64,000 bases of DNA, from contig NZ_FORG01000015.1 of assembly GCF_900113945.1 (NCBI RefSeq), forward strand, positions 1 to 64,000, in the 5' to 3' direction. Source of the stretch: Xenorhabdus mauleonii (GTDB taxonomy: Bacteria; Pseudomonadota; Gammaproteobacteria; Enterobacterales; Enterobacteriaceae). Both the position numbers and the translations under genes were made by a program. Below the pieces are notes generated by a model that did no database searches, was not told where the DNA came from, and worked only from the letters and a program-made list of their open reading frames with translations. Of the stretch, positions 50,097-64,000 are shown piece after piece (within the stretch, counting starts at the first letter, position 1; each line of letters begins with the position of its first letter).

Positions 50097-50600
50097 TTAA
50101 TCCCGCAATAACGCCCCTGGATAACCCAGTTGCCGCCACGCTTCAAATACAATCACAGAAACAGAATTGGATAAATTCATGCTTCGGCTATCTGGCAGCA
50201 TAGGAATTCTGATCTTCTGTTCAGGTGGCATATTATCCAGCACATAAGATGGCAAGCCACGAGTTTCTGGGCCAAACATCAGATAATCACCATCACGATA
50301 GCTTACATTACTGTGTGCAGGCGTGCCTTTTGTCGTTAAAGCAAACAGCCGTGCGCCAGAAGGGGATTGTGAATTGACGGAACTGAGCCCTTCACTTTCC
50401 AAGAATGCGTTGTAGTCATGGTGCTGCTTGATATTGGCAAATTCATGGTAGTCCAACCCTGCGCGGCGGAGGCGCTTGTCATCCCATGTAAAACCTAAAG
50501 GTTGGATAAGATGAAGCTGACAGCCTGTGTTGGCGCAGAGGCGAATAATGTTGCCGGTGTTAGGCGGGATTTCTGGTTCGAATAGGACGATGTTTAGCAT
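50097..50600 (-). CDS. trmL: tRNA (cytidine(34)-2'-O)-methyltransferase TrmL
   Basis: 167 residues, SPOUT family. It methylates the wobble base of tRNA-Leu. [26 protein letters not shown] and the end [18 protein letters not shown] match TrmL. A ten-residue insert (near SVNSQSPSG) makes it longer than the 157-residue E. coli protein. The start overlaps the end of licC by 7 bp, although the two genes are unrelated in function, which shows that the O-antigen block was inserted right at this gene. Confidence 0.94.
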
Positions 50601-51289
50601 ATTTTCAGTAAGTTATTACAGATATAATTGTAGTTTTCAACAGTATCCATTTCTGCTGCATGTGTTTTGTCTACTAAGTGAGTAGTAACTTCTATTTCGC
50701 CAAATAGAGAGATAGGGATATTATCCCAATAAAGCTTACTGTTTTTTAATGTTTCGTCATTGAGATATTTAGGAAGTTCTTTTCTGATGAGTTCACATGC
50801 AGAAGCATTCCAGTAGGATATACCGAGGAGGGATGGAGCATTGGCATTACTCACTTGCATGCTTTCAATTATGCCATAGTTATTCAAGATAGGTATCCAC
50901 TCTTTATCGAGGTTCTCTGGCCTTTCAATAACATAATAAGCACTTTTTTCTAGTGTAACGAAAATATTTTTAAGTAATACTACATCTGCATCTATTACTA
51001 TAGAATTATTAAAAAATTCAGAAGCGAGATTAAAAGAATATATGCTATTATAATCGGCGTAGTGTTGATTATAAATTAGATTACACTGGTATTTATCTTT
51101 CAGATAATTAAACAAATGAGACATGTGCCCAGTGACTACATTTATCTCATTTATTCCAAATTTCTTAATATGTCTTATGGTGTGTTCAATATTAGGTATT
51201 CCATTAATTGGAAGTAATGCTTTATGGTTATTGGTTGTTAGCTCGTTGAATCTAGAACCTAAGCCTGCAGCTAAAATTATTGCATTCAT
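50594..51289 (-). CDS. licC: CTP:phosphocholine cytidylyltransferase LicC
   Basis: 231 residues. It joins phosphocholine to CTP to give CDP-choline. The nucleotidyltransferase loop is AAGLGSRF (to residue 14) with Lys23 in [28 protein letters not shown] and the metal site VIDADVV (Asp100, Asp102) follow. [16 protein letters not shown] and KLYWDNIP match Haemophilus LicC at the same places. It overlaps licB by ATGA and trmL by 7 bp. A sugar nucleotidyltransferase is the alternative, but the YNSIYSF-DADVV-ISYW set and the licA, licB and licD neighbours make LicC likely. Confidence 0.85.
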
Positions 51290-52242
51290 TTGATAGCCAA
51301 TTTAAATTTTTTGATATTGATGGGGTTTACTGCTGTTAAAAATGAGCCTAAAGAAACACCAATGCATATAAGTAATAAATTTATAGATATGGGTTCATCT
51401 ATAATTATATATGAGAAGACTATTGCCCATGCAGAATAGGTTATATTTAAAGCCATTGCTCTAATAGGAAGTAATCTTTCTATTGCCCGGTAATAAAAAA
51501 GATAGGAAATTGTTGAAATTAAAGAAGTTACCAGTAATAGGGTGGTTAATTTTAAGTCTGAGAAAATATAAGTTCCCCCAGGAAAAGAATGAATGAAGAC
51601 CGCAATAAGGATAAAATAGCCTAGTGAAGATGATGATTGTCTTATAAAATAAGCAATGTCTGAAGGAATATCTTTATTCATGCCGTACGAGCTGATTACT
51701 ACTTCAGAGCCCCATCCTAATGCACATAAGAAAGCAAAAAGAAAACCAACCCATCCAGATATAGCTTGGGTCGTAGCTGAATAACCTAAAAGAATTGTAC
51801 AAGTTATAGCTAATACTAAGCCGAGTAATCCTATTTTATGAATTCTATCTTTAAGTAGAAAAAATGATATCAAAGCGCCAATGGCCGGATATAATGCAGA
51901 AATAGCTGCGGTGTATCCAACACCAATATATTTTATTGATAAAATGTAAAAAGACATTCCCATTGGGCCACCGAATATGGCAGCTATAGTAATAATAAAA
52001 TAGTTTTTATTTTTTAAAATAGATAATATATTTTGATGTTTTTTATGATATAGGAGATAGAGCAACATGTATATAAATGAAATTAAATCATTCAGAAATG
52101 CAATAATTATAGGAACAAGAAAGTAGGAGGAAAGTGTATTATCTTTTAATAATAAAGCTAAAAGAACACCACTTAATCCCCAGAATAATCCGGAAAAAAA
52201 TCCGTATAAATTTGACGTTAATTTGGAGTGGCTATTAAGCAT
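51286..52242 (-). CDS. licB: LicB-type choline transporter (DMT superfamily)
   Basis: 318 residues with ten predicted membrane segments in two EamA-like halves (FFSGLFWGLSGVLLALLL and FLFAFLCALGWGSEVVISSYG). In Haemophilus LicB takes up choline for the lic pathway. The family resemblance is clear, but DMT proteins are broad, and the choline role rests on the tight coupling to licC (ATGA). The protein is well preserved. The 283 bp before it hold a short perfect palindrome and no gene. Confidence 0.78.
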   Translation of the reverse strand: MLNSHSKLTSNLYGFFSGLFWGLSGVLLALLLKDNTLSSYFLVPIIIAFLNDLISFIYMLLYLLYHKKHQNILSILKNKNYFIITIAAIFGGPMGMSFYILSIKYIGVGYTAAISALYPAIGALISFFLLKDRIHKIGLLGLVLAITCTILLGYSATTQAISGWVGFLFAFLCALGWGSEVVISSYGMNKDIPSDIAYFIRQSSSSLGYFILIAVFIHSFPGGTYIFSDLKLTTLLLVTSLISTISYLFYYRAIERLLPIRAMALNITYSAWAIVFSYIIIDEPISINLLLICIGVSLGSFLTAVNPINIKKFKLAIK

Positions 52243-52384
52243 GATTTAGTTTGATTTTTTATATTACTTGCATTCACATAATGGCGGGATTGCTGGGCAG
52301 CATATCCCACTGACAGTTGATCTTTAGAAGATATGATAATGCACAAAATCCTCATAAAAATCGATTTTTCTGGGGCGTTGCGCT

Positions 52385-52405
52385 CCCTGATGCTGAGCAT
52401 CAGGG
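52385..52405. repeat. Perfect 10-bp palindrome upstream of licB
   Basis: CCCTGATGCT (52385-52394) pairs with AGCATCAGGG (52396-52405) with a one-base centre. No T run follows. The GCATCAGGG word recurs at the left end of the ISAs1 element (54192-54200), so it may be an IS remnant or a protein-binding site. The stretch 52243-52525 holds no gene. Confidence 0.5.
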
Positions 52406-52525
52406 GCTCATTCTCGACTAATGTCACTGGCATAAATTTTCTCATCCCAGTAGTTTATATGAAAAACTATTCAGGTTTAAAAAGACTCTGAATAGTTTCT
52501 AAAACGTCAACACAGCCCCGAGGTA

Positions 52526-54067
52526 TTATTCTGTAATATCCATATCATAGTCATGTATCCCACCATTAAGAACAAATCTTTTTGTTTCAATTAGATTAGG
52601 ATCAACTAGACTACATCCTTTTCTTATTTTTGTTTGTATTAACGATAAATCCAAACTAGTATCAACAAAACATTCTGTTGTTATTTTTTTATTTTTATTA
52701 CTTGCTAAATTACCAATCATTTGTGGATATCTTGAGTAATACTCATTATTAAACCAATAAAATTGCCCTATATTGAAATTACCTTTAGTGTTTCCACCAT
52801 AAAGTGATTTTCCATCATCATAAATGGCTGTGCCATGATCGGAAACAAAAGATAAGTATACTAGGCCATCCTCGTTCTTAAGTACATTGATAAAATCACT
52901 TACGTTTTTATCAACTGAGTATAAAATTGAGTTGGCATAGCTGTTCTCCAATTTTTCTTTATCTTTTATTGTAGGATTTGAGTATGTTTCTTTAGTAAAT
53001 GATGGCTTAAAAATAGAATATTCATCAGGGTAGCGGGTGTGATATAAATAATGGCTACCAACAGTCTTATATACAATTAATTTTTTATTGCTTTTTTCTT
53101 TTAAAATTTCTTTTAACGTACTGGTGTTTACATTTGACCGAATATAATGATTTGCTTCATTTGCAATCAGGTTTATTTCATTGTCACCTATATGACTTCT
53201 TGATAAATAAGAAACATACCATGTTTCAAAACCAGCCTCTTTATATGCACTTATAAGGGATTTTTCTGGGTATAAACCTGAATCACCCACTGTTTTTCTG
53301 GTTAAAATCATCGGTGTTGATATTAATGTATACGCGCCTTGTGATATTGAATTATTGAAAGATATAATTTTTTCTTTGTCTAAGTTAGGAGTGGTATTTT
53401 TATGATATCCATTGAAGTGAAGATAGTCACCTCGATGTGTCTCACCTAAAAATATGATGACTGTTTGTTTGTTATTGATGGTTGTTTTAGCATCCCAATA
53501 GAATGATTTTTTTTTGGATATAATCTCAGCATTGAATTTTGTTTTGTCAAAATTTTTTATCACTTTATTAACTGCAATATTTATTGGGCTGGAAATAAAA
53601 AACATTGTCAATAATAAGGCCGGAGTTACAGTTATAAATAATGGAAGATCATATTTTTGTTTTTTTCCTGGCATAAATATGAATATTGAATTTATTATTA
53701 TGATAATAACACATAGAATTTCCTCTTTAGAAAAAAACAGGTTGCTATATATTTCATCGGGGTTTGTGTCAATTATTATATTTATTATTTCATTTGGTAT
53801 CTCGTGAAAATAAAATGAACTCATCCTAAATGTCATGAATTCAACAAATAAGAATGCCAATAAAATAGAACTAATTAGTAATGCGGTTATTTTTTTGGTC
53901 TTAGAGAAAAAGCCATACAGTAAAACAAGAATTAAAAACAATTCTTGTAGGTAAAAATATAGTTTATCCTCAAATATCTTTGGTGAAAAAATGGAAAAAT
54001 AGATCAGGTTAGTTACTGAAATAATTATGTATGTGAGCTTGTATTTATCTAAGGTTCTGTTTTTCAT
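52526..54067 (-). CDS. EptA/CptA-like phosphoethanolamine transferase (sulfatase fold)
   Basis: 513 residues. Five membrane segments fill the first ~170 residues, followed by a periplasmic alkaline-phosphatase-like domain with FLGETHRGDYLHFNGYHKNTTPNL, SQGAYTLISTPMILTRK (likely nucleophile Thr) and the metal site FVSDHGTAIYDDG. These enzymes move phosphoethanolamine from phosphatidylethanolamine to lipid A, heptose or O-antigen sugars. Being inside the O-antigen block, it may act on core or O-unit and not on lipid A. AT-rich like the rest of the block. Target not readable. Confidence 0.75.
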   Translation of the reverse strand: MKNRTLDKYKLTYIIISVTNLIYFSIFSPKIFEDKLYFYLQELFLILVLLYGFFSKTKKITALLISSILLAFLFVEFMTFRMSSFYFHEIPNEIINIIIDTNPDEIYSNLFFSKEEILCVIIIIINSIFIFMPGKKQKYDLPLFITVTPALLLTMFFISSPINIAVNKVIKNFDKTKFNAEIISKKKSFYWDAKTTINNKQTVIIFLGETHRGDYLHFNGYHKNTTPNLDKEKIISFNNSISQGAYTLISTPMILTRKTVGDSGLYPEKSLISAYKEAGFETWYVSYLSRSHIGDNEINLIANEANHYIRSNVNTSTLKEILKEKSNKKLIVYKTVGSHYLYHTRYPDEYSIFKPSFTKETYSNPTIKDKEKLENSYANSILYSVDKNVSDFINVLKNEDGLVYLSFVSDHGTAIYDDGKSLYGGNTKGNFNIGQFYWFNNEYYSRYPQMIGNLASNKNKKITTECFVDTSLDLSLIQTKIRKGCSLVDPNLIETKRFVLNGGIHDYDMDITE

Positions 54068-54195
54068 GTCGTTTGGTTTTATTAAAAGGTATAGTGTGGA
54101 ATAAAATTAATCGTAGTTTACTATACTAATGGTACTTTAAGTTGCATTTATGCTGGGTTAACATAATAAATGCAATGTGCGCCCCGTATAGGCAT

Positions 54196-55433
54196 CAGGG
54201 CAACCGCATGAGTGTTTAGTTTTTCATCACTGGACTAAAGCCAGCACTTAGTACTGTCTCTAGCATCGATGTATTCATCATGCATCGCTTTTGTTTTCCG
54301 ATGATGCTCAACTTAGTGCACTCTGCTCGAAGCATATTCAAGCTCATATGGCGTAAGCAAGACAGGTTCTCTGCACCATGTGCTTTGTATATCTGGCAGG
54401 CATCTTCGTTCATGCTCACATCCAGTACCCAATGCATTGATTCTATACCCCAGTACTCTCTCACGGCCTGCGCCGCTTGCTCTGCGCTCAGCTCTTTGGA
54501 ATTGATATAATATCGATATTCTAAGTTGACCGATTTTCCTTTTTCAAGGCGGTAGTTTTCAACCATCACCATTCGCTTCAAGCCTTTCCAACGAGAGAAG
54601 TCACCTTCCAGCTTTGTACTATCAAAAACATAGCATTGGCGAGACTCTATTCGTCCATGTCCCTCTTCAATCGAGAGGCCATCTGCCACCTTGGCTCGAC
54701 AAGATGAGAAAGCTTTTTCTATCGCTTGACGGAGTTTGCCTTGGTTACTTTTAACCACAAGCAGGTAATCGCCACCCTGGTCAATAATCGCTTTGGCTAT
54801 CTTGGCTTGGCAGGCCATCGCGTCAATGGTCACCAAGGCTCCCTTGATATCGAGCACCTTTATCAATTCAGGGATCGCTGTTATTTCATTGCTTTTTTGC
54901 GCGGTTTTAAGTTGTCCCAACACGAGTCTGTTTGATGAGGCATAAGCACTGATCATATGAATGGTGCTCGTTCTATCCTCTCGGTTGTATGAGCCTCGAA
55001 GCGTTTTACCATCTATCGCAATCACTTGACCTTCGGTAAGCGTATGTACCGATGACATCCAATTGACGAAATATTCATGAAATTGTTCAGGGTCAATCGC
55101 CGATATGATGCGAGCAATGTTGTCGTCAACGGGAATTCCGTTCAAAAACAGGTCATTGCGCTTAAACCAGTCATGGTGCCCGAGGATATATTCGCGAATA
55201 TCAAACCACCCCTTTGCGCCCGAGATAACGGCACACAGTGAGCCAAACAAGACTTCAAAGAGGCAATACGTAACCTTAGCCCCTTGGCGTTGGTCACTAA
55301 TGGTTTGAAAATGCTCTTTGAAGTGGTCAATGTGCATGGTGCTCTCCCGAAAAAGGGAGTATATGATCACAGCTAAATGTGATCGTCAAATCGATCGTTA
55401 TTTTTGCTAAAAAATGTTCGCGATCTTACCCTG
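54196..55433 (-). mobile_element. ISAs1-family insertion sequence, about 1.24 kb
   Basis: The ends are CAGGGCAACCGCATGAG at 54196 and, inverted, CAGGGTAAGATCGCGAA ending at 55433. Between them is an intact transposase gene. Flanking bases (54186-54195 and 55434-55443) are not identical, so no target duplication is seen. It lies between the EptA-like gene and the epimerase gene. Confidence 0.8.
54216..55337 (-). CDS. ISAs1-family transposase (DDE)
   Basis: 373 residues from the ATG at 55337 (MHIDHFKEHFQTISDQRQ), the family's usual start. The frame is open from 55370. The domain order is the DUF4338-like N-terminus (VLFGSLCAVISGAKGWFDIREY), VIAIDGKTLRGSYNR, VTIDAMACQAKIAKAI (DDE Asp) and WGIESMHWVLDVSMNEDACQI. 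All is intact, so the copy may still move. Confidence 0.93.
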   Translation of the reverse strand: MHIDHFKEHFQTISDQRQGAKVTYCLFEVLFGSLCAVISGAKGWFDIREYILGHHDWFKRNDLFLNGIPVDDNIARIISAIDPEQFHEYFVNWMSSVHTLTEGQVIAIDGKTLRGSYNREDRTSTIHMISAYASSNRLVLGQLKTAQKSNEITAIPELIKVLDIKGALVTIDAMACQAKIAKAIIDQGGDYLLVVKSNQGKLRQAIEKAFSSCRAKVADGLSIEEGHGRIESRQCYVFDSTKLEGDFSRWKGLKRMVMVENYRLEKGKSVNLEYRYYINSKELSAEQAAQAVREYWGIESMHWVLDVSMNEDACQIYKAHGAENLSCLRHMSLNMLRAECTKLSIIGKQKRCMMNTSMLETVLSAGFSPVMKN

Positions 55434-55523
55434 CGTCCTAGGGTACTGTGAGAGATATAATTCATTCATGTTTTTTATTTTTAAATCAATAGAGCGATCA
55501 AAGTCTTTGAAAGTGAACTGTAT

Positions 55524-56477
55524 TTATAAATTTTTAAATTCCTTTTTTACTGTATTTGATATACCTTGCTCAAGTGTTACCGGGGGAATAAATCCTATTT
55601 TATCTATATTATCAGATCTAAATTGAGTGCGAGCACAGAATTTTTTTATGCGAATACAGCTAATTGGGAATTCTTTTCTAGTGATCTTGGATAAGATATC
55701 GAAAAAATATCCACATAAAGCTCCAATAGAATATGGTATATGAATATTAGATTTATTTTTACCTAGAGTCTGACAAATAACATCTGTTAATTCATTCATG
55801 GTGAAATCAGGTTTGTCAATATAATTGAAAATATAGCGTCCTGATTTGAAATTGGTTGCAAATTTTAAGAATGCAGCCACATTTTCAACATATGCCATGG
55901 ATTTTTTATTATTACCTGAACCTATCATTACAAAACGCCCTGAGGCTATTTGTTTGAATAGATTGTAAACGTTACCTCTATTGTTCTCACCAAAGACAAC
56001 AGTTGGGCGAATTGTTACTAATGTCCTATCAATATTTTCTGATTGCCAAGTATCATATACAATTTCAGCTTCTAATTTAGATTTTCCATAATCATTAAAA
56101 GCATGTAAATTGCCATTTTCACTAGTTTCTTGCTCAACAAAGCCATAAACTGCAACAGATGAAGTAAAAATAATATGTTTTATATTTAACTTTTTTGCTG
56201 CTTCACATAAATTTTTCGCCCCATCAACATTTACTTTATAATATAAACTTATAGGTCGTACATTATCTTTATGTTCAGCCGCCAAGTTAATAATAATTGA
56301 AGCTCCTGCTAGAGGTATCAATAAAGTATTTAGTTTTGTAATATCACCATATTCCCAATACTCAGAAAATATTTCACTTTTTTTTATATCAACAATCTTA
56401 AAAGGAATGTTTTCTTTTTTTAACTGAGAAGATAGGCGAGTTCCTATGAATCCAGAACCACCGATGATTACTATCAT
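55524..56477 (-). CDS. NAD-dependent epimerase/dehydratase (extended SDR)
   Basis: 317 residues. The dinucleotide loop is IIGGSGFIGTRL, TSSVAVYG is the Ser site and YGKSKLEAE gives the catalytic Tyr-x-x-x-Lys. VRPTVVFGENNRGNV is typical of UDP-sugar epimerases. It probably makes a nucleotide sugar for the O-unit, such as a 4-epimer of a UDP-N-acetylhexosamine, but the reaction cannot be fixed by eye. It is the last gene of the wzx-to-epimerase block, just before the IS. Confidence 0.75.
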   Translation of the reverse strand: MIVIIGGSGFIGTRLSSQLKKENIPFKIVDIKKSEIFSEYWEYGDITKLNTLLIPLAGASIIINLAAEHKDNVRPISLYYKVNVDGAKNLCEAAKKLNIKHIIFTSSVAVYGFVEQETSENGNLHAFNDYGKSKLEAEIVYDTWQSENIDRTLVTIRPTVVFGENNRGNVYNLFKQIASGRFVMIGSGNNKKSMAYVENVAAFLKFATNFKSGRYIFNYIDKPDFTMNELTDVICQTLGKNKSNIHIPYSIGALCGYFFDILSKITRKEFPISCIRIKKFCARTQFRSDNIDKIGFIPPVTLEQGISNTVKKEFKNL

Positions 56478-56489
56478 ACTGACTCCTTA

Positions 56490-57305
56490 TTATTTTCTTA
56501 TCAATCTATAAACTTTAGACAATAGTGAAGTTGGAAGTATCCTGATAATACTTCTTAAAATAAAAGTAAGTAACGCTGGGAAAAAGCTATCTATATTTTT
56601 TTCTACTTTTAGTTTTGCTAATTTTAGTTCGCTTTTAATATATGATATACCTCTCCTTTTTTTTATCATTGCATTTCCAGTTCTAACTTTTAACAATCTA
56701 TCAGACAAGTTTTCAACCTTGTAGCCTAGAGATATTACGCGTATCCATAAGTTGTAGTCTTCCATAAAAATATGATGTTGGTAATTACCTGATTTCATTA
56801 TTATATCTTTCCGTAAAATAACGCTCATATGATTAAATGGGTTTCTTTTTTTTATAAATTTAATAATATCATTATGTGATAAAGCCAAAGTCTTTTTAGT
56901 TATGATATTTGACATCGTTTCATCATATTCAATGACATTTGAACCAAGGATAGATATTTCTGGCATTTTGCACATATATGCTATTTGTTTTTCAAATCTA
57001 TCGGGAAAACAAATGTCATCTGTATCCATTCTGGCAATAAGGTTGTGTTTACATTGCAATAGGCCAAAGTTTAAAGAGTAACCCAATCCCATATTTTTTT
57101 CTGTTTTGAAAATTTTTAAAGGGAGTATAGACTTCCATTTTGATATTACTGCTTCAAGTTCTACGTTTATTGAACCATCAAAAATGATTACAATTTCATC
57201 AGGTTGAAGGGTTTGTTGATACAAACTTTCCAAGCATTGATGTAAATAAATAGGTTTTTCTTTGTCATACAAAGACATCAAAACAGAAAAATTATTATGC
57301 AACAT
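56490..57305 (-). CDS. GT2-family glycosyltransferase, O-unit assembly
   Basis: 271 residues, GT-A fold. SVLMSLYDKEKPIYLHQCLESLYQQTLQPDEIVIIFDGS, then ARMDTDDICFPDRFEKQIAYM with the DxD-type metal site. LKLAKLKVEKN and a membrane-proximal C-terminus follow. It would add a sugar to the undecaprenyl-linked O-unit. Donor and linkage unknown. It is one of very few transferases in the block, so the O-unit is short or uses a Stealth-type linkage. Confidence 0.8.
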   Translation of the reverse strand: MLHNNFSVLMSLYDKEKPIYLHQCLESLYQQTLQPDEIVIIFDGSINVELEAVISKWKSILPLKIFKTEKNMGLGYSLNFGLLQCKHNLIARMDTDDICFPDRFEKQIAYMCKMPEISILGSNVIEYDETMSNIITKKTLALSHNDIIKFIKKRNPFNHMSVILRKDIIMKSGNYQHHIFMEDYNLWIRVISLGYKVENLSDRLLKVRTGNAMIKKRRGISYIKSELKLAKLKVEKNIDSFFPALLTFILRSIIRILPTSLLSKVYRLIRK

Positions 57306-57356
57306 TTTAATTTTTTCTTAGTTAATAATATATGGAAATAAATTCATTTTTTAAGC

Positions 57357-58403
57357 TTAATATTGATCTCTGCTTTTTTCAAATGATGCCGGAACTGGAA
57401 AGTTTTCATCTAAAAATAAAATCAATTTATTTTTTACAGAAAAAAACTCTTTATCTGATAGAGCGGTTGAATCATTAAAGCAAATAAAGTTAAAGTTTTT
57501 CAGTTTAATTTCTTTAATCATTCGTTCTAATGAAAATGTGGATTCAATATTTTTAACTAAACCATCGTTATATTTTTGAGGATAAAATTGGCCTGCTGTT
57601 AAATTCCAATATCTATAAAGATATTGAGTAAGGTCATTATTAGAGCGGAATTTATTTTTTGAACAAATTGACATTTCTTTTTCATATTGAGCATGAACTT
57701 TAAGAATTTCTTCTTTTATATAAGGTTGTGGATGATGCCAATGTTCGAACCAAAAGTATTTTTTTATAAAATACTTTAATAAAAAATTTAATATGTTTCC
57801 AGTTAATCCATAGCTTTTATTAAAAAGATAGTGATTATTTAGCTGATTGGGTGATCTGATTTTATTTATTAATGATATATTATTGTTGATAGAATTAATC
57901 CAAGTATCGATTTCTTTTAATAATGAAAATAATCTTCCTCTAGGAAGGAATCCATGACATAAAAAATCAACTGGAAGATTTTTAATAAAAAACCTTTCTA
58001 TTGGTAGTTGTTTGAATATTATCATGTCATCATTTAAGTATATAAATTTATTTGACAAATCAGGTAGGTTTGCTAAGTTCATTTCAATTGATGATGAACT
58101 AAATGTTGGTAAATCCTCCTTATTAAAATAAAGTTCCTCATGTGTTACCAGCCTTATTTTCGGATTCGTCAAATTTAACCAATTTGGATAGTGCCCTTCA
58201 GTGATTAAAAATATCTTATTGTACCATGGGCAATTTTTTTCTATTGAGCGGAGAACATATTTTAATGTATCAAAATCTCTAAATCTAGCATTAGAATTTT
58301 CATCTATAGACGCTTTATTTGTGGAGTAGAGTCTTCGTCTCTTTTGCCAAAGAATATCATTGCCATCCACCCAAGGAAGTACAAAATCTATTTTAGTATT
58401 CAT
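57357..58403 (-). CDS. Stealth-family hexose-1-phosphate transferase
   Basis: 348 residues. The Stealth regions are clear: CR1 DFVLPWVDGND (6-16), CR2 from ARFRDFDTLKYVLRSIEKNCPW (39-60) with FLITEGHYPNW and YLNDDM (~122-127), CR3 HWHHPQPYIKE (220-230) and a weaker CR4. Known members (for example CpsY-type and meningococcal capsule polymerases) move sugar-1-phosphate from a nucleotide sugar, leaving a phosphodiester bond. Here it would place a sugar phosphate in the O-unit. Donor not readable. Confidence 0.82.
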   Translation of the reverse strand: MNTKIDFVLPWVDGNDILWQKRRRLYSTNKASIDENSNARFRDFDTLKYVLRSIEKNCPWYNKIFLITEGHYPNWLNLTNPKIRLVTHEELYFNKEDLPTFSSSSIEMNLANLPDLSNKFIYLNDDMIIFKQLPIERFFIKNLPVDFLCHGFLPRGRLFSLLKEIDTWINSINNNISLINKIRSPNQLNNHYLFNKSYGLTGNILNFLLKYFIKKYFWFEHWHHPQPYIKEEILKVHAQYEKEMSICSKNKFRSNNDLTQYLYRYWNLTAGQFYPQKYNDGLVKNIESTFSLERMIKEIKLKNFNFICFNDSTALSDKEFFSVKNKLILFLDENFPVPASFEKSRDQY

Positions 58404-58422
58404 TATCGCCTTGTTAAAAAAA

Positions 58423-59640
58423 TCAATTATTTTTTGCTACTGGATCTTTAATCCAAAATCCATCTTTATCGACCTGAGATAGTAATGTTCGATAGTGTTT
58501 ATCACTGTAGTCAATAGTCATAATTGGAGATAAATATAATGGCCGCCACATTTCACCAAGTAATACCTGTCTTCTGTAACCGTACAAAGAATCCACCATA
58601 AAATTAATACTAAATATGACTATCAGGCCATAGATGTAACTTATTTTAAAACTATTTAATTTTAATAAATAAAAAATAATAAGAAATGTAGGTAAGATAG
58701 AAAAACGAGTAAATATTGTAAATGAAAAGTGAGTTAATAATAAAAATATAGATAACCAGAAAATAATATTTCTTTCCATATTGAGGGAGGGTGTAAGTTT
58801 TCTTTTTGAAAAAAAGGAGAAAAAAAACAGCATTAAAAAAAATGGGACTTGATTAATTATAATCCTTATTTTTCCATATATATTTTTGTCTTCACCTGAA
58901 GACCACTTCCCATTTATATAAGAATGCCCATATTGGATATGGTTGGAAATTATTTCAAATATAATATAACTATATGAAGATAAAATAAAACTTATTATGC
59001 ATATAAAAAAAAATGAAATCCGCTTTATTTTTATTATTCTAGATGAAAAAAATGGAAGTATAAAAAACAACATGCTAAAATGCAATAAGATACTAATTAA
59101 AAAGAGTATTATAAACGTTGTTTTTTTCTTATTTGTTATATAGTGGCTAAATGCATAAATTACTATAGATATGGCTAGCCCATACCTGAGTCCTGAAGCG
59201 ATAGTAAAATAATTTATATTAAGTAAAATTATTACATGGGAAAGAATATATTTTTCATATGATATACTTATACGTTGGTTTTTAATCAATAAAGAAAAAG
59301 ATAACAAAATCAATAAGGTTGAGAGAAATACAACACTTCCGGGTATAAAATAAAACGGTAAATTCAACGCATGAAAAAGGGCAAAATAAACATGCAATAG
59401 GAAGTCTTTTTCAGTAAATGATAAGTGAGAAATGTTAAGAAATGAATTATAGTGCCTATATAGATCTCCTAATGGTGGTATATATATAAATATATACGCA
59501 AAAAAAAAGGATATTATTATATAGGATAATAAGTTATTTTTTTTTGAATTTAAAGAAATGATTGATAAGACAAATCCTATAATTGGGATAAGAAAAAAAC
59601 ACAATAAAGAAACAATGGATTTTTTGCTTATTGAAAACAT
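58423..59640 (-). CDS. wzy: O-antigen polymerase-like membrane protein (Wzy candidate)
   Basis: 405 residues from the ATG at 59640, which has AGGTG 7 bp upstream. A GTG at 59649 adds three residues. It has about eleven membrane segments and a large hydrophilic loop near residues 215-260 (the HSYINGKWSSGEDKNIYGKIRIII part). This EpsG/Wzy layout joins O-units on the periplasmic side. Wzy proteins share little sequence, so the call rests on topology and on its place between licD and the Stealth gene in a Wzx-containing block. Confidence 0.72.
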   Translation of the reverse strand: MFSISKKSIVSLLCFFLIPIIGFVLSIISLNSKKNNLLSYIIISFFFAYIFIYIPPLGDLYRHYNSFLNISHLSFTEKDFLLHVYFALFHALNLPFYFIPGSVVFLSTLLILLSFSLLIKNQRISISYEKYILSHVIILLNINYFTIASGLRYGLAISIVIYAFSHYITNKKKTTFIILFLISILLHFSMLFFILPFFSSRIIKIKRISFFFICIISFILSSYSYIIFEIISNHIQYGHSYINGKWSSGEDKNIYGKIRIIINQVPFFLMLFFFSFFSKRKLTPSLNMERNIIFWLSIFLLLTHFSFTIFTRFSILPTFLIIFYLLKLNSFKISYIYGLIVIFSINFMVDSLYGYRRQVLLGEMWRPLYLSPIMTIDYSDKHYRTLLSQVDKDGFWIKDPVAKNN

Positions 59641-59645
59641 ATTTA

Positions 59646-60374
59646 TCACCTAATATTTTTATATATTTTCTTTTTTGCAACCATTTCTTCTTGAGGGAAT
59701 ACATAATAATTATTAGCTTCAAGTAGGTAATCAAAAGAAGGGTTAGGTTTCATAAATGAATCCCCATAATTGTTTTTAAGATACTCTTCTGTATTATAAG
59801 GAATAATTAATTCGCTATTTGAAAAATTAATTTTCTTAAATTTAGATATAGGATTAGTAACTTTTATGATAGAATAATTGCCTTTATACAGCCCATTATC
59901 TATATATGGGAAATAATAACACGATGCTATTAATTGTTGATTGGAGTTATTATTGTCAATTGTATAATAGAATATATCAATCGTTACTCCATTAAATATA
60001 TATGTATGTTGAATTATTTCATTATCATCTGAATGCGTTAGAGGAGTATATTCATAAAGTAATCTGAAATTGTTTTTTTCTAGTGCTTTTTTTACTTTAT
60101 CTTTATCTTTAAGATAACACCCAAAGTCCAAATCTAAATCATATTCTATAATTTTATTTTCCCTATATGCACCAAGTAGTGTACCAAAATCTAACCAAAT
60201 AACTATATTATTATTTTTTATAATATTACTTATTTTTTGTAAAATAATATCAGAGTTTTCTTTTAGTGCTTGATTTCTTTTTTTATTTTTATGATTTGAA
60301 TATAATTTATATAATGGTTTTAAAAGGAATTTGTTTTTCAGGTTTTTACCTATTGTCACGATTAATTCAGGCAT
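59646..60374 (-). CDS. licD: LicD-family phosphocholine transferase
   Basis: 242 residues. The LicD core is IWLDFGTLLGAYRENKIIEYDLDLDFG-type (around residues 59-85, with Asp79, Asp81 and Asp83), and ITPHTYIFNGVTIDIFYY-type sequence follows. LicD enzymes move phosphocholine from CDP-choline to a sugar of LPS or teichoic acid. Fukutin-like proteins with other donors share the fold, but licA, licB and licC in the same block support choline. It lies 13 bp after wzx. Confidence 0.82.
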   Translation of the reverse strand: MPELIVTIGKNLKNKFLLKPLYKLYSNHKNKKRNQALKENSDIILQKISNIIKNNNIVIWLDFGTLLGAYRENKIIEYDLDLDFGCYLKDKDKVKKALEKNNFRLLYEYTPLTHSDDNEIIQHTYIFNGVTIDIFYYTIDNNNSNQQLIASCYYFPYIDNGLYKGNYSIIKVTNPISKFKKINFSNSELIIPYNTEEYLKNNYGDSFMKPNPSFDYLLEANNYYVFPQEEMVAKKKIYKNIR

Positions 60375-60387
60375 TATATTCTCTAAC

Positions 60388-61629
60388 CTACTTTAGTTTA
60401 TGGTGTTTTTTACAAAAAAGGAATAATCTAAGAAATAAAGTTATAACATCAGTTATTATTACGCTGTAAATTATGTTCTGTATGCTAATTTTATCCATAA
60501 TATAAAAAACACATATCAATATAAAATATATTATTGAACCAATTATAACAGTAAAATTAGCCAGTTGTGGAGAACCAATGGTTGCGAAAGCTGGATATCC
60601 CCAAAGTATAGAAACAACATTAATTGGAATAAGAAATAAAAATAGGTCAAAATAATCCGAAGCTAATAGATAGTTTTTACCAAAAATTATAACTATGATT
60701 TGTTGAGAATAGAATGAGACGGTATAACAACATAGAATGGATATTGTAAGCAGTGCTAATGTGATATTAATTAATGTTTTTATGTTTTTTGTTCTAGCTA
60801 AATATGGATATAATGAGTTTGTAATCGGTGACATGCTGCTTATTGCTGCGTTATATAGTTTTTCAGCAGAGCCATATAATGCTGCATACTTTAATCCGAT
60901 AAATGTACCTATTATTATAGAATTTAATGATGTAGATAAGGTCACTGATATTCTTGAAATAAAAAAACCAAAACTATTCTTTAGTTCTGACTTTAGAAGT
61001 TTTCTATTTGGATAGGAAATGTGGTAACCTTCTTTTTTATATAAGAACAAATAAATAACAGAACACATGAAGTTGCTTATCATGAATGATAATAAATAAA
61101 TGTTAATGCTTTGTTTTATTTCAAATAAAATAAAAATGAATATAACATTCATTGATTTTGCAACGATAACTGCAATCGTTATATTTCTCATTTTTTCTAT
61201 GCCTTGAAAAAACCAAGGAATTTGAAAGGATTGAAAAAAAATTATTAATGAGATTAAAGTGTATGAAATTTTGTTTAATAATGGATTCTTTTGAACATAT
61301 TCAAAAAAAAGGATGATACCTATGATTGATATCAATGATAGAAAAATTTTAATTATAAAAATTGCGCCTACATATTGGCTAATTCTTTCTTTTTCATCTC
61401 TTAAGTTTACTATATTATACGGGGCAGATAAACCGAACCCAAAATCTGTTATCATAAATGAGATAGAGAAGGCTGATATTAATATTATATATAGGCCAAA
61501 CTCTTCGATAGAAAGATTTCTAGAAAGAAAAGGTAATAAAATTAATGGCAACCCTAATTCTAGCAATTTAATTAAGAACAAAAAAATACTATTTTTGAAG
61601 ACTGGGTGTTCTAACATGTATTTTAGCAT
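60388..61629 (-). CDS. wzx: O-unit flippase Wzx
   Basis: 413 residues with about twelve membrane segments. LPLILLPFLSRNLSIEEFGLYIIL at the N-terminus and FGFGLSAPYNIVNLRDEKERI are typical of the polysaccharide flippase family (PST). It moves lipid-linked O-units across the inner membrane for Wzy and WaaL. It is the first of the wzx-licD-wzy-Stealth-GT2-epimerase series. A run of four ATTTTTT units lies ~115-140 bp upstream, in the gap to licA. Confidence 0.85.
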   Translation of the reverse strand: MLKYMLEHPVFKNSIFLFLIKLLELGLPLILLPFLSRNLSIEEFGLYIILISAFSISFMITDFGFGLSAPYNIVNLRDEKERISQYVGAIFIIKIFLSLISIIGIILFFEYVQKNPLLNKISYTLISLIIFFQSFQIPWFFQGIEKMRNITIAVIVAKSMNVIFIFILFEIKQSINIYLLSFMISNFMCSVIYLFLYKKEGYHISYPNRKLLKSELKNSFGFFISRISVTLSTSLNSIIIGTFIGLKYAALYGSAEKLYNAAISSMSPITNSLYPYLARTKNIKTLINITLALLTISILCCYTVSFYSQQIIVIIFGKNYLLASDYFDLFLFLIPINVVSILWGYPAFATIGSPQLANFTVIIGSIIYFILICVFYIMDKISIQNIIYSVIITDVITLFLRLFLFCKKHHKLK

Positions 61630-61743
61630 ATTTTCTTAAAAAATGGTTTTTTGTGTTTATATTTCATATGGAAATAGCATTAGATATTTTGTTGAATTGT
61701 ACTTGTTTTTCACAGCCAATATAAAAATATATGGGAGTTAATT

Positions 61744-61771
61744 ATTTTTTATTTTTTATTTTTTATTTTTT
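61744..61771. repeat. Short tandem repeat, four ATTTTTT units
   Basis: ATTTTTT starts at 61744, 61751, 61758 and 61765, four exact units. It lies upstream of wzx and downstream of licA (stretch 61630-62074, no gene). A heptamer repeat here could change length by slippage, as the lic tetramers of Haemophilus do inside licA. Confidence 0.9.
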
Positions 61772-61923
61772 ACAGATGAGCTAATGGCTAATGTATACGC
61801 AGTAAACTTGAAGATGCATGAGAGGGTATGATTCATGCTATTGATTTTTAATTATTAATTTTAAAATCAAACCAGCACCTTGAAGTTAAATGAGTATATT
61901 TTAATTCTTTATACAACTTCTCG

Positions 61924-61963
61924 TCTCGTAAAGCACAAAATGTTCTCGTAAAGCACAAAATGT
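61924..61963. repeat. Perfect 20-bp tandem duplication between wzx and licA
   Basis: The unit TCTCGTAAAGCACAAAATGT at 61924-61943 is repeated exactly at 61944-61963. No reading frame uses it. It could be a small duplication left by a mobile element or a binding site pair. Confidence 0.95.
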
Positions 61964-62074
61964 ATCCTACCTATTATGAATTAAAAACCGTTATTGCCTA
62001 TGGAAGTTAATAGTTTGATTTTTATATTCCAATCAAAACTATTTTGATCTTGCTGTTTAATGTAGAGTTACAGT

Positions 62075-62959
62075 TTATTTGCATGCATTATATGTTTTTT
62101 TATGTTCTTTTATTTGCCTCAAACAGTTTTGATATCGTTTAATTCCATAGTTGCCAAATAATTTTTCATCTTTTTCTTTCAATAAAGTCCATATTGACCA
62201 TAAAAAGTTCTGACATATTCTAAAAATAAGAATTTTTTCATCAATTTTACTCTTGTTATATTCTCTTTCTACAAAATATTCAGATAAAAATATTTCTTGT
62301 TTGAGTTTTCCTATGCCAGATTCTTCAAAAATGGCTGCAATATCCCACATTGGATCATTCATTCCTGAATATTCCCAATCGATTAGATAATATTTTTCAT
62401 GGGTTTTTATAAAATTTTCTGGGACAGGGTCGTTATGACAAGGAGATGTGTTTATCCCTATTCTAGCTAATTTTTTCTGTAATGAAAAAAAATAATCTTC
62501 AGTTTCTTTGAAGTTTGGATAACTTATTTCAATGTTATTAAGTTGTTTAATGTATCTATTATATTCTTCAAATACATTGAAAGTGTTTTTAAAAATAATA
62601 TCTGATAAATGTAACTTAGATAGTATCTTTGCAATATTTAATAAATTTTCATCACGGGATAATGTTTGAGGAGATAAAGTTTCGCTGTTTTCTAAATATT
62701 TAGTGATCTTTATACCTGAATCAAGGCTATAATAGTATAGCTTAGGGTTTATATCTATAAGTGTTGCGAGTTGGCAATTATATTTTTCATTGACTCGGTT
62801 GATTATTTTCCCTGTGTTGTTTCCTGGGATTCGTAGAACAACTTTTTTCTGCTTTGTCTCACAGTAATAATTAACATTTGTCATTCCGCCAATTCGTTCT
62901 ATTTTTTTTACTTTTTCTTTTATGAGGGGTTCTATAATTTTTTTTATGTCTTCGAACAT
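62075..62959 (-). CDS. licA: Choline kinase LicA
   Basis: 294 residues, APH/choline kinase fold. It phosphorylates choline with ATP, the first step to CDP-choline. The catalytic loop CHNDPVPENF (His175, Asp177, Asn182) and the metal site LIDWEYSGMNDPMWDIA (Asp194) are typical of LicA. No CAAT-type repeat is present at the 5' end, so the slippage switch of Haemophilus licA is missing here. Upstream lies the edge of a decayed ISAs1 copy, ~220 bp away. The gap 62960-63178 is AT-rich with no gene. Confidence 0.87.
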   Translation of the reverse strand: MFEDIKKIIEPLIKEKVKKIERIGGMTNVNYYCETKQKKVVLRIPGNNTGKIINRVNEKYNCQLATLIDINPKLYYYSLDSGIKITKYLENSETLSPQTLSRDENLLNIAKILSKLHLSDIIFKNTFNVFEEYNRYIKQLNNIEISYPNFKETEDYFFSLQKKLARIGINTSPCHNDPVPENFIKTHEKYYLIDWEYSGMNDPMWDIAAIFEESGIGKLKQEIFLSEYFVEREYNKSKIDEKILIFRICQNFLWSIWTLLKEKDEKLFGNYGIKRYQNCLRQIKEHKKTYNACK

Positions 62960-63178: not shown

Positions 63179-64000
63179 CAGGGCAAGAGCGTGAATGTTT
63201 ATTTTTTGCCTAATACATTAAATCCGGAGGCTAATACCTTATCTAAATAGCCAATATCCATACTGGCAATTCTCCGTTTTCGGCGAATACTGGCTTTTTT
63301 GGTCGTTTCTGCCCGAAGCAGATTCAGGCTCAAATGGCGCATACATGCTAACATCTCCGCTGATCTTCCCCGGTGGATCTGGTAATTATCTTCTTTCATT
63401 GAAACATCCAGCACCCTATGTACCCGGTTTTCTATTCCCCAGTGTGTCCCCGCACTGCGCTTGCAAACTCGGCTGTGCTGAGTTCTGTTGAACTGATATG
63501 ATAACGGTAGTCCAGTGGTTCTTTGCTTTTATTATCCTTCGGTAACCCATTACCACGCCAATGCTTTTTAAATTTTCCCACTCTGGAAATTGGGCAATTA
63601 GCTCTCCTGCCGGTAAGACGTGGTATTTACGCGCTTCGGTGCGCCCATGACCTTGTTCTCGCGTGACATTTTCAGTATTGCTGACCAGCTGATACTTGGG
63701 ATGATAAAGCTTGCTTTACAGCCCGATACAAGGTCTCCTGATTACCTTTAACCGCCAGAAGATTGTTTCCTTCCTGTTGAATAACACATTCGGCAATTTT
63801 AGTCTGACACCCCATCGCATCAATGGACACCAGACACCCTTTGATGTCCAGCAAGTTAATCAGTTTAGGGATCGCGGTAATTTCATTGGATTTTTTGTCC
63901 GTTTTCAATTGTCCCATGACAACCCCATTTTGGGTGGTAAACGCACTGACCATATGAATAGTCGACCGTCTGTTATTTCGGTCACAAGAGCCCCGCAGCA
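63179..64000 (-). mobile_element. Decayed ISAs1-family element, runs off the window
   Basis: The end CAGGGCAAGAGCGTGAATGTTTA at 63179 resembles the left end of the intact copy at 54196 (CAGGGCAACCGCATGAGTGTTTA). The transposase inside is broken by frameshifts. Orientation is the same as the intact copy. The other end is outside the window. Confidence 0.7.
63199..64000 (-). pseudogene. Frameshifted ISAs1-family transposase (partial)
   Basis: Pieces of the transposase appear in different frames: IDAMGCQTKIAECVIQ (63672-63953 region), then GHGRTEARKYHVL, GVVMGYRR, PLDYRYHISSTELSTAEFASAVRGH and finally LDVSMKEDNYQIHRG with the C-terminus (63199-63414). At least three frameshifts separate them. 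By eye it matches the intact copy in the window at roughly half to two thirds of positions, so it is a different member of the family, not a recent duplicate. Confidence 0.8.

Follow-up and report, generated by a model that had tools for sequence, protein, structure and literature searches.

What do the genes of a phosphocholine pathway do at opposite ends of an O-antigen gene cluster, and how did they come to lie apart? The question is raised by the first 64,000 nucleotides of contig NZ_FORG01000015.1 of Xenorhabdus mauleonii (assembly GCF_900113945.1; this whole stretch is called the window below), which carries homologs of licA, licB, licC and licD. We think it likely that this is a Wzx/Wzy O-antigen cluster whose O-unit carries phosphocholine, and that its lic pathway is split because it is chimeric.

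A lic gene set within a Wzx/Wzy cluster

In the window sequence all four lic frames are open and full length, at the coordinates given in a preliminary description of this DNA, and they are arranged with wzx and wzy as follows:

50594..51289, minus strand: licC, CTP:phosphocholine cytidylyltransferase, 231 amino acids; overlaps trmL by 7 bases
51286..52242, minus strand: licB, choline permease of the EamA/DMT superfamily, 318 amino acids; overlaps licC by 4 bases
58423..59649, minus strand: wzy, EpsG-type polymerase (named wzy for its EpsG family and its place)
59646..60374, minus strand: licD, divergent LicD-family CDP-alcohol phosphotransferase, 242 amino acids; Asp 79, 81 and 83
60388..61629, minus strand: wzx, O-unit flippase, 41% identical to Morganella morganii Wzx
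62075..62959, minus strand: licA, choline kinase, 294 amino acids, Morganella-type (57%)

The layout given in the preliminary description, with licBC abutting trmL, licD flanked by wzx and wzy, and licA towards cpxA, is confirmed. Read along the minus strand from the cpxA end, the order is licA, wzx, licD, wzy, a Stealth-family gene, genes for a family 2 glycosyltransferase, an epimerase and an ISAs1 transposase, a phosphoethanolamine-transferase-type gene, licB, licC and trmL. After trmL come cysE, gpsA and secB, and cpxA and cpxR lie just outside the window at the licA end; NCBIfam models over their cut-offs name TrmL, GpsA and SecB inside the window and CpxA and CpxR beyond it, and CysE is named by its Pfam domain. 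The cluster genes other than the insertion sequence (IS) gene have a G+C content of 0.23-0.32, versus 0.47-0.48 in trmL, cysE and gpsA. The cluster thus has wzx, wzy and transferase genes of low G+C between cpxA and trmL-cysE-gpsA-secB, as an O-antigen cluster of the Wzx/Wzy type does, and Proteus and Morganella carry their O-antigen genes at this same locus, including its trmL-cysE-gpsA end (PMC8649690; PMC8027243; published systems are cited here from excerpts of the papers).

LicA, LicB, LicC and LicD homologs, which together make up a Lic-1 set, are all present in this one genome, which has one strong LicC, one LicD and one strong LicA match, plus a weak second LicA match at 36 bits.

Substrate and acceptor of the pathway

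The preliminary description called the LicABCD set complete, and each full-length frame has a family match, a solved-structure match or both. LicA scores 89.4 bits against the Pfam choline kinase model (cut-off 29); its best solved relative is Streptococcus pneumoniae LicA (4r77, E 6.8e-63), and in the alignment to that structure eight of the eight choline-contact residues named in PMC4364537 are identical. LicB belongs to the EamA family, in a superfamily that is a broad transporter group, and the only solved relative found for it is S. pneumoniae LicB (7b0k, E 5.1e-41). The best solved relative of LicC is S. pneumoniae LicC (1jyk, E 5.6e-39), whose D105 and D192, the Asp pair that leaves room for choline, are matched by D100 and D189 of the X. 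mauleonii protein (numbering mapped by us). LicD scores 33.6 bits against the Pfam LicD model, over the cut-off of 22.6.

From these likenesses and positions we infer the enzyme activities, choline as the substrate delivered by LicD and the O-unit as its acceptor. LicB would import choline, LicA would phosphorylate it and LicC would make CDP-choline. LicD, the sole LicD-family match in the genome and taken here as the phosphocholine transferase, would then transfer phosphocholine in the cytoplasm to the lipid-linked O-unit, which Wzx would afterwards flip and Wzy polymerise, and Wzz and a ligase-family protein could complete the chain (candidates in the genome are two Wzz and one ligase-family protein). 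An identical order of steps was put forward for Proteus mirabilis O18 by the authors who described it (PMC8027243). TacF, a pneumococcal flippase that checks phosphocholine (PMC13385700), offers a possible lead for Wzx.

Could the pathway activate some other compound, such as phosphoethanolamine, aminoethylphosphonate or an alditol phosphate, which LicD then attaches? The closest solved relative of LicD, in a fold list holding no bacterial LicD structure, is FKRP, which uses CDP-ribitol, and LicC-like enzymes can be phosphonate-specific, one such enzyme even having an aromatic choline box (PMC6697681). However, LicA retains its whole choline pocket and LicC both small Asp residues, and the two phosphoenolpyruvate mutase matches in the genome both fall under the family cut-off (best 121.3 versus 319.55 bits). 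We find another substrate quite improbable, and the aminoethylphosphonate (PntC) pathway in particular was rejected because no such mutase over the cut-off is present.

If choline is the substrate, the product might be sent to the lipopolysaccharide (LPS) core or to another glycan and not to each O-unit. The glycan that is decorated in Haemophilus is an LPS without a Wzx/Wzy O-chain, and the acceptor of a transferase cannot be read from its sequence. Decoration of H. influenzae LPS is also mentioned in PMC8027243. On the other hand, licD overlaps wzy by 4 bases and starts 13 bases after wzx, and the same locus in P. mirabilis O18, a strain reported to have phosphocholine on its O-units, likewise places licD next to wzx (PMC8027243). 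We therefore judge a destination other than the O-unit unlikely, and the O18 case favors the O-unit decoration put forward in the preliminary description.

The pathway could also be decaying and inactive. IS genes lie within and beside the cluster, and relatives show lic genes in various states of damage: they are broken in Morganella psychrotolerans, licB is split in the Xenorhabdus lircayensis draft genome, and the Xenorhabdus genome G016 has only a licC scar. In the window, by contrast, the four frames are open and their key residues are kept, so that decay too seems an unlikely explanation.

Different ancestries of the lic genes

The preliminary description compared the set with the single licABCD operon of Haemophilus and called it a split lic1-type pathway. 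Haemophilus is not the nearest comparison, and the split is very probably not a dispersed lic1 operon. The lic1 locus of H. aegyptius (L080) has the same four functions but is a single licA-licB-licC-licD run with a LicD of another clade. Wzx/Wzy clusters that contain lic genes are known from P. mirabilis O18 and M. morganii, and phosphocholine repeated along the chain is therefore no novelty; in 2021 such O-chains were said to be known from these two species only (PMC8027243), with lic genes within O-antigen clusters known from O18 and Lic-1 homologs from M. morganii (PMC8027243; PMC10434233). The O18 locus likewise runs from cpxA to secB, is of the Wzx/Wzy type and has licABCD homologs inside with licD next to wzx, but, compared by its published description only, its licA, licB and licC overlap one another in one run and licD alone stands apart by wzx (PMC8027243). 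The window has no such run: licA is 10.8 kb from licC, and licBC is beside trmL.

Each end of the X. mauleonii cluster resembles a different relative. M. morganii FAM24679 (L060/L066) has the same bounds, with licA beside cpxA (57% identical), a wzx (41%) and a Stealth gene (35%); it differs in that its licABC genes are contiguous, its LicD is of another clade (27%), and its LicB and LicC are 38% and 55% identical to those of the window. Its licABC genes are followed by wzx, LicD in a 251-residue open frame and the Stealth gene. A second Morganella genome, G233 (L059), also has licABC following cpxA, yet it is not among the LicD-bearing genomes. The cpxA-trmL locus of M. psychrotolerans (L092) has a similar order, with glycosyltransferase and epimerase genes ahead of trmL, and its licA, licB, wzx, Stealth and glycosyltransferase frames are the broken ones.

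At the other end, licBC abuts trmL in X. lircayensis (genome G019, L057) and in a second Xenorhabdus genome, G010 (L056), whose LicC proteins are 85% and 80% identical to that of the window and whose LicB proteins are 72-81% (X. lircayensis, in two pieces) and 76% (G010) identical. In both, unlike in the window, licD and licA are joined to licBC, giving a contiguous licD-licA-licB-licC-trmL order, and LicA (43% and 45%) and LicD (34% and 36%) are much less similar. In X. lircayensis (L057 9727-14832) a trmL lies on either side of licDABC, the second being 90% identical in DNA, an arrangement that points to arrival of the set with a trmL copy attached; licB in this draft is in two overlapping frames. 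In G016 (L058 10382-10513) only the last 44 licC residues remain, abutting trmL and cut by other sequence. Further afield, Candidatus Fukatsuia symbiotica has two licABC sets (L061, L062), next to one of which is a 573-residue protein with a LicC-like start; after it come enzymes that resemble, by eye, a phosphonate set.

Trees agree with this division. They were built from 14 loci that we picked for spread and seven rows of the window's family, giving 21, 19 and 20 rows for LicA, LicB and LicC; the LicB tree omits two of the 14 loci (one has no LicB match and one short pieces only) and takes the longer of the two open X. lircayensis pieces, and the LicC tree omits one locus cut by a contig end. 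LicA groups with Morganella (97/97), and forcing it with Xenorhabdus is 80 log-likelihood units worse (p 1.7e-12). LicB and LicC group with Xenorhabdus (99/98 and 100/99), and forcing them with Morganella is rejected, for LicB at 64 units worse (p 1.66e-09) and for LicC at p 4.18e-04. Each of the three is thus of the type that its kin keep at the corresponding end of the locus. In a LicD tree of 28 rows, the X. mauleonii protein shares a clade with LicDs of Xenorhabdus and Neisseria wadsworthii and stands apart from those of Morganella, Pasteurella and Haemophilus (100/100), and pairing it with M. morganii LicD is rejected (p 3.23e-06); members of this clade adjoin licABC in Xenorhabdus and licC in N. 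wadsworthii.

These results bear directly on whether a single, intact lic1 operon was acquired and an insertion or inversion within the O-antigen block later broke it up. The single strong LicA, LicC and LicD matches, the location of all the genes on one strand and the ISAs1 copy in the block would fit such a history, but the trees contradict it, since LicA and LicBC differ in ancestry, and each half is placed where its kin keep it; we consider it very unlikely.

The lic genes appear, on the trees, to have been drawn together from at least two separate ancestral sets. Because LicA and LicBC are of different ancestry and LicD is not a Morganella LicD, we read the split as a chimera of complementary remnants and not as a scattered lic1 operon. 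In this chimeric history licA, at the cpxA end, would derive from a Morganella-type cluster whose own licBC has been lost there, and the licBC at the trmL end would be what a trmL-joined Xenorhabdus licDABC cassette left behind after losing its licDA. The simplest order of events would be that a Morganella-type cluster met a resident trmL-linked cassette and that duplicate parts were then lost.

Several observations weigh against a chimeric, phosphocholine-adding pathway. Remnants of the lost lic genes were not found in six gaps (tblastn with 13 Morganella and Xenorhabdus proteins, best E 0.06), and therefore we only infer the losses. Besides its likeness to FKRP, LicD is weak as a cholinephosphotransferase, scoring 49 bits versus the NCBIfam equivalog cut-off of 225, and its grouping with Xenorhabdus LicD is neither established nor firmly rejected (p 0.0569). 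The O18 cluster, known here by its published description alone, could hold an intermediate. Finally, the occurrence of LicD and that of LicC do not always coincide across the family: genomes G040, G337, G201 and G357 have LicD without a strong LicC, and G233 (presumed to be in the 392-genome sample described next) has LicC and is outside the seven genomes with LicD.

LicA, LicD and strong LicC matches are rare in the wider family. Among 392 genomes, LicD matches occur in seven, LicA matches at E 1e-20 or better in six (one with internal stops) and LicC matches at E 2.2e-78 or better in four; the next best LicC match is at 6.5e-11, and 78 genomes have some LicC match at E 0.001. Within the genus, 3 of 30 genomes, including that of the window, have a LicD family match and 16 have some LicC match. 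Full-length LicC at 80% identity or more is found only in G010 and X. lircayensis besides the window's genome, G016 adds its 44-residue fragment, and 12 further genomes have short LicC matches only, at E 9e-5 or weaker.

A survey of LicC loci, one genome per species, served to gauge how exceptional the split is; it comprised 78 distinct loci from the best 80 of 132 and used profiles built from rows that include the window. All 31 loci scoring at least 266 bits with the LicC profile have a licA match on the same strand no more than 3.5 kb upstream; licC and licA of the window are 10,785 bases apart. The 31 include two pairs from single genomes, and one of them (L063) is the same place as X. lircayensis G019; the LicA match is in pieces in L083 and L092, and in L087 it lies in a frame that also matches LicC. 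The count excludes the other 47 loci, which score below 266 bits; several of these have no licA in the stretch covered or have it on the other strand (e.g., L104 and L110).

Other features of the cluster and their significance

The remaining features of the cluster are these:

52243..52525: gap, the likely seam between the two halves, with no clear licA or licD remnant inside
52526..54067, minus strand: phosphoethanolamine-transferase-type gene of the sulfatase fold, 513 amino acids
54216..55370, minus strand: ISAs1-family transposase, full-length frame within the cluster (406 bits versus cut-off 70)
55524..56477, minus strand: NAD-dependent sugar epimerase/dehydratase (family match)
56490..57305, minus strand: family 2 glycosyltransferase (family match)
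57357..58403, minus strand: Stealth-family protein, probable sugar-1-phosphate transferase (CR1 and CR2 over cut-off)
61742..61772: 4.4 perfect tandem copies of a 7-base unit, 113-143 bases upstream of wzx

The intact ISAs1 transposase gene, the phosphoethanolamine-transferase-type gene and the Stealth sugar-phosphate transferase gene are additions to the preliminary account. The 52526-54067 product is 70% identical to an M. morganii protein named phosphoethanolamine transferase and also has relatives in Proteus, Providencia and Xenorhabdus szentirmaii. The epimerase is 77% identical to one in X. lircayensis and 73% to one in M. psychrotolerans, both of which adjoin a trmL. In the Stealth protein, region CR4 is under cut-off and CR3 unmatched; its best relatives (54-62%) are annotated with CR1 and CR2, and some also with CR3 and CR4. 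Judging from this family membership, the protein probably puts a phosphodiester (sugar-phosphate) link into the O-unit; such a link has been argued for an H. parainfluenzae O-antigen (PMC3989065), and the P. mirabilis O18 unit is likewise called an 'oligosaccharide phosphate' (in the title of a cited work).

A partial ISAs1-family transposase frame, 63672-63998 and onward, lies between licA and cpxA (139 bits, model positions 85-188 of 314); a full-length relative is the in-cluster copy at 54216-55370. Part of the seam gap recurs once at another place in the genome (77% over 91 bases). The 7-base repeat spans 31 bases between licA and wzx, and a period-7 run of that length occurred in 0 of 600 simulated blocks (three Markov orders, 200 blocks per order; simulated maximum 21); it is a possible length switch for wzx-licD. 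In the same gap, at 61924-61963, a 20-base sequence is present twice, head to tail. No ops element (GGCGGTAGCGT, at most one mismatch) was found in stretch L002, which runs past the window at the licA end, and promoter-like (81 versus 81.4 in shuffles) and terminator-like (7 versus 6.9) counts showed no excess and hence were not used.

As far as literature searches go, the Xenorhabdus case and the two-source make-up of the pathway are new. A full-text search, judged mostly by title and abstract and with poor coverage of subscription literature, found no paper on phosphocholine LPS in Xenorhabdus or Photorhabdus; in PMC5039438, phosphorylcholine occurs in titles of cited works on nematode products.

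More tentatively, licA of Morganella type, trmL-linked licBC of Xenorhabdus and a LicD that may belong to a third line could be complementary pieces from which the pathway was rebuilt, so that phosphocholine was kept through an exchange of the O-antigen cluster; the Stealth and phosphoethanolamine-transferase-type genes could then give an O-chain with a phosphodiester backbone and two zwitterionic groups. Phosphocholine is a group found on host lipids, and Xenorhabdus, an insect pathogen and nematode symbiont, lives with both kinds of host. If our reading of the cluster is correct, an insect- and nematode-associated genus shares this host-mimicking group. The chimeric make-up would show that such decoration can persist while O-antigen clusters swap, with trmL-linked lic cassettes serving as a spare part in Xenorhabdus.

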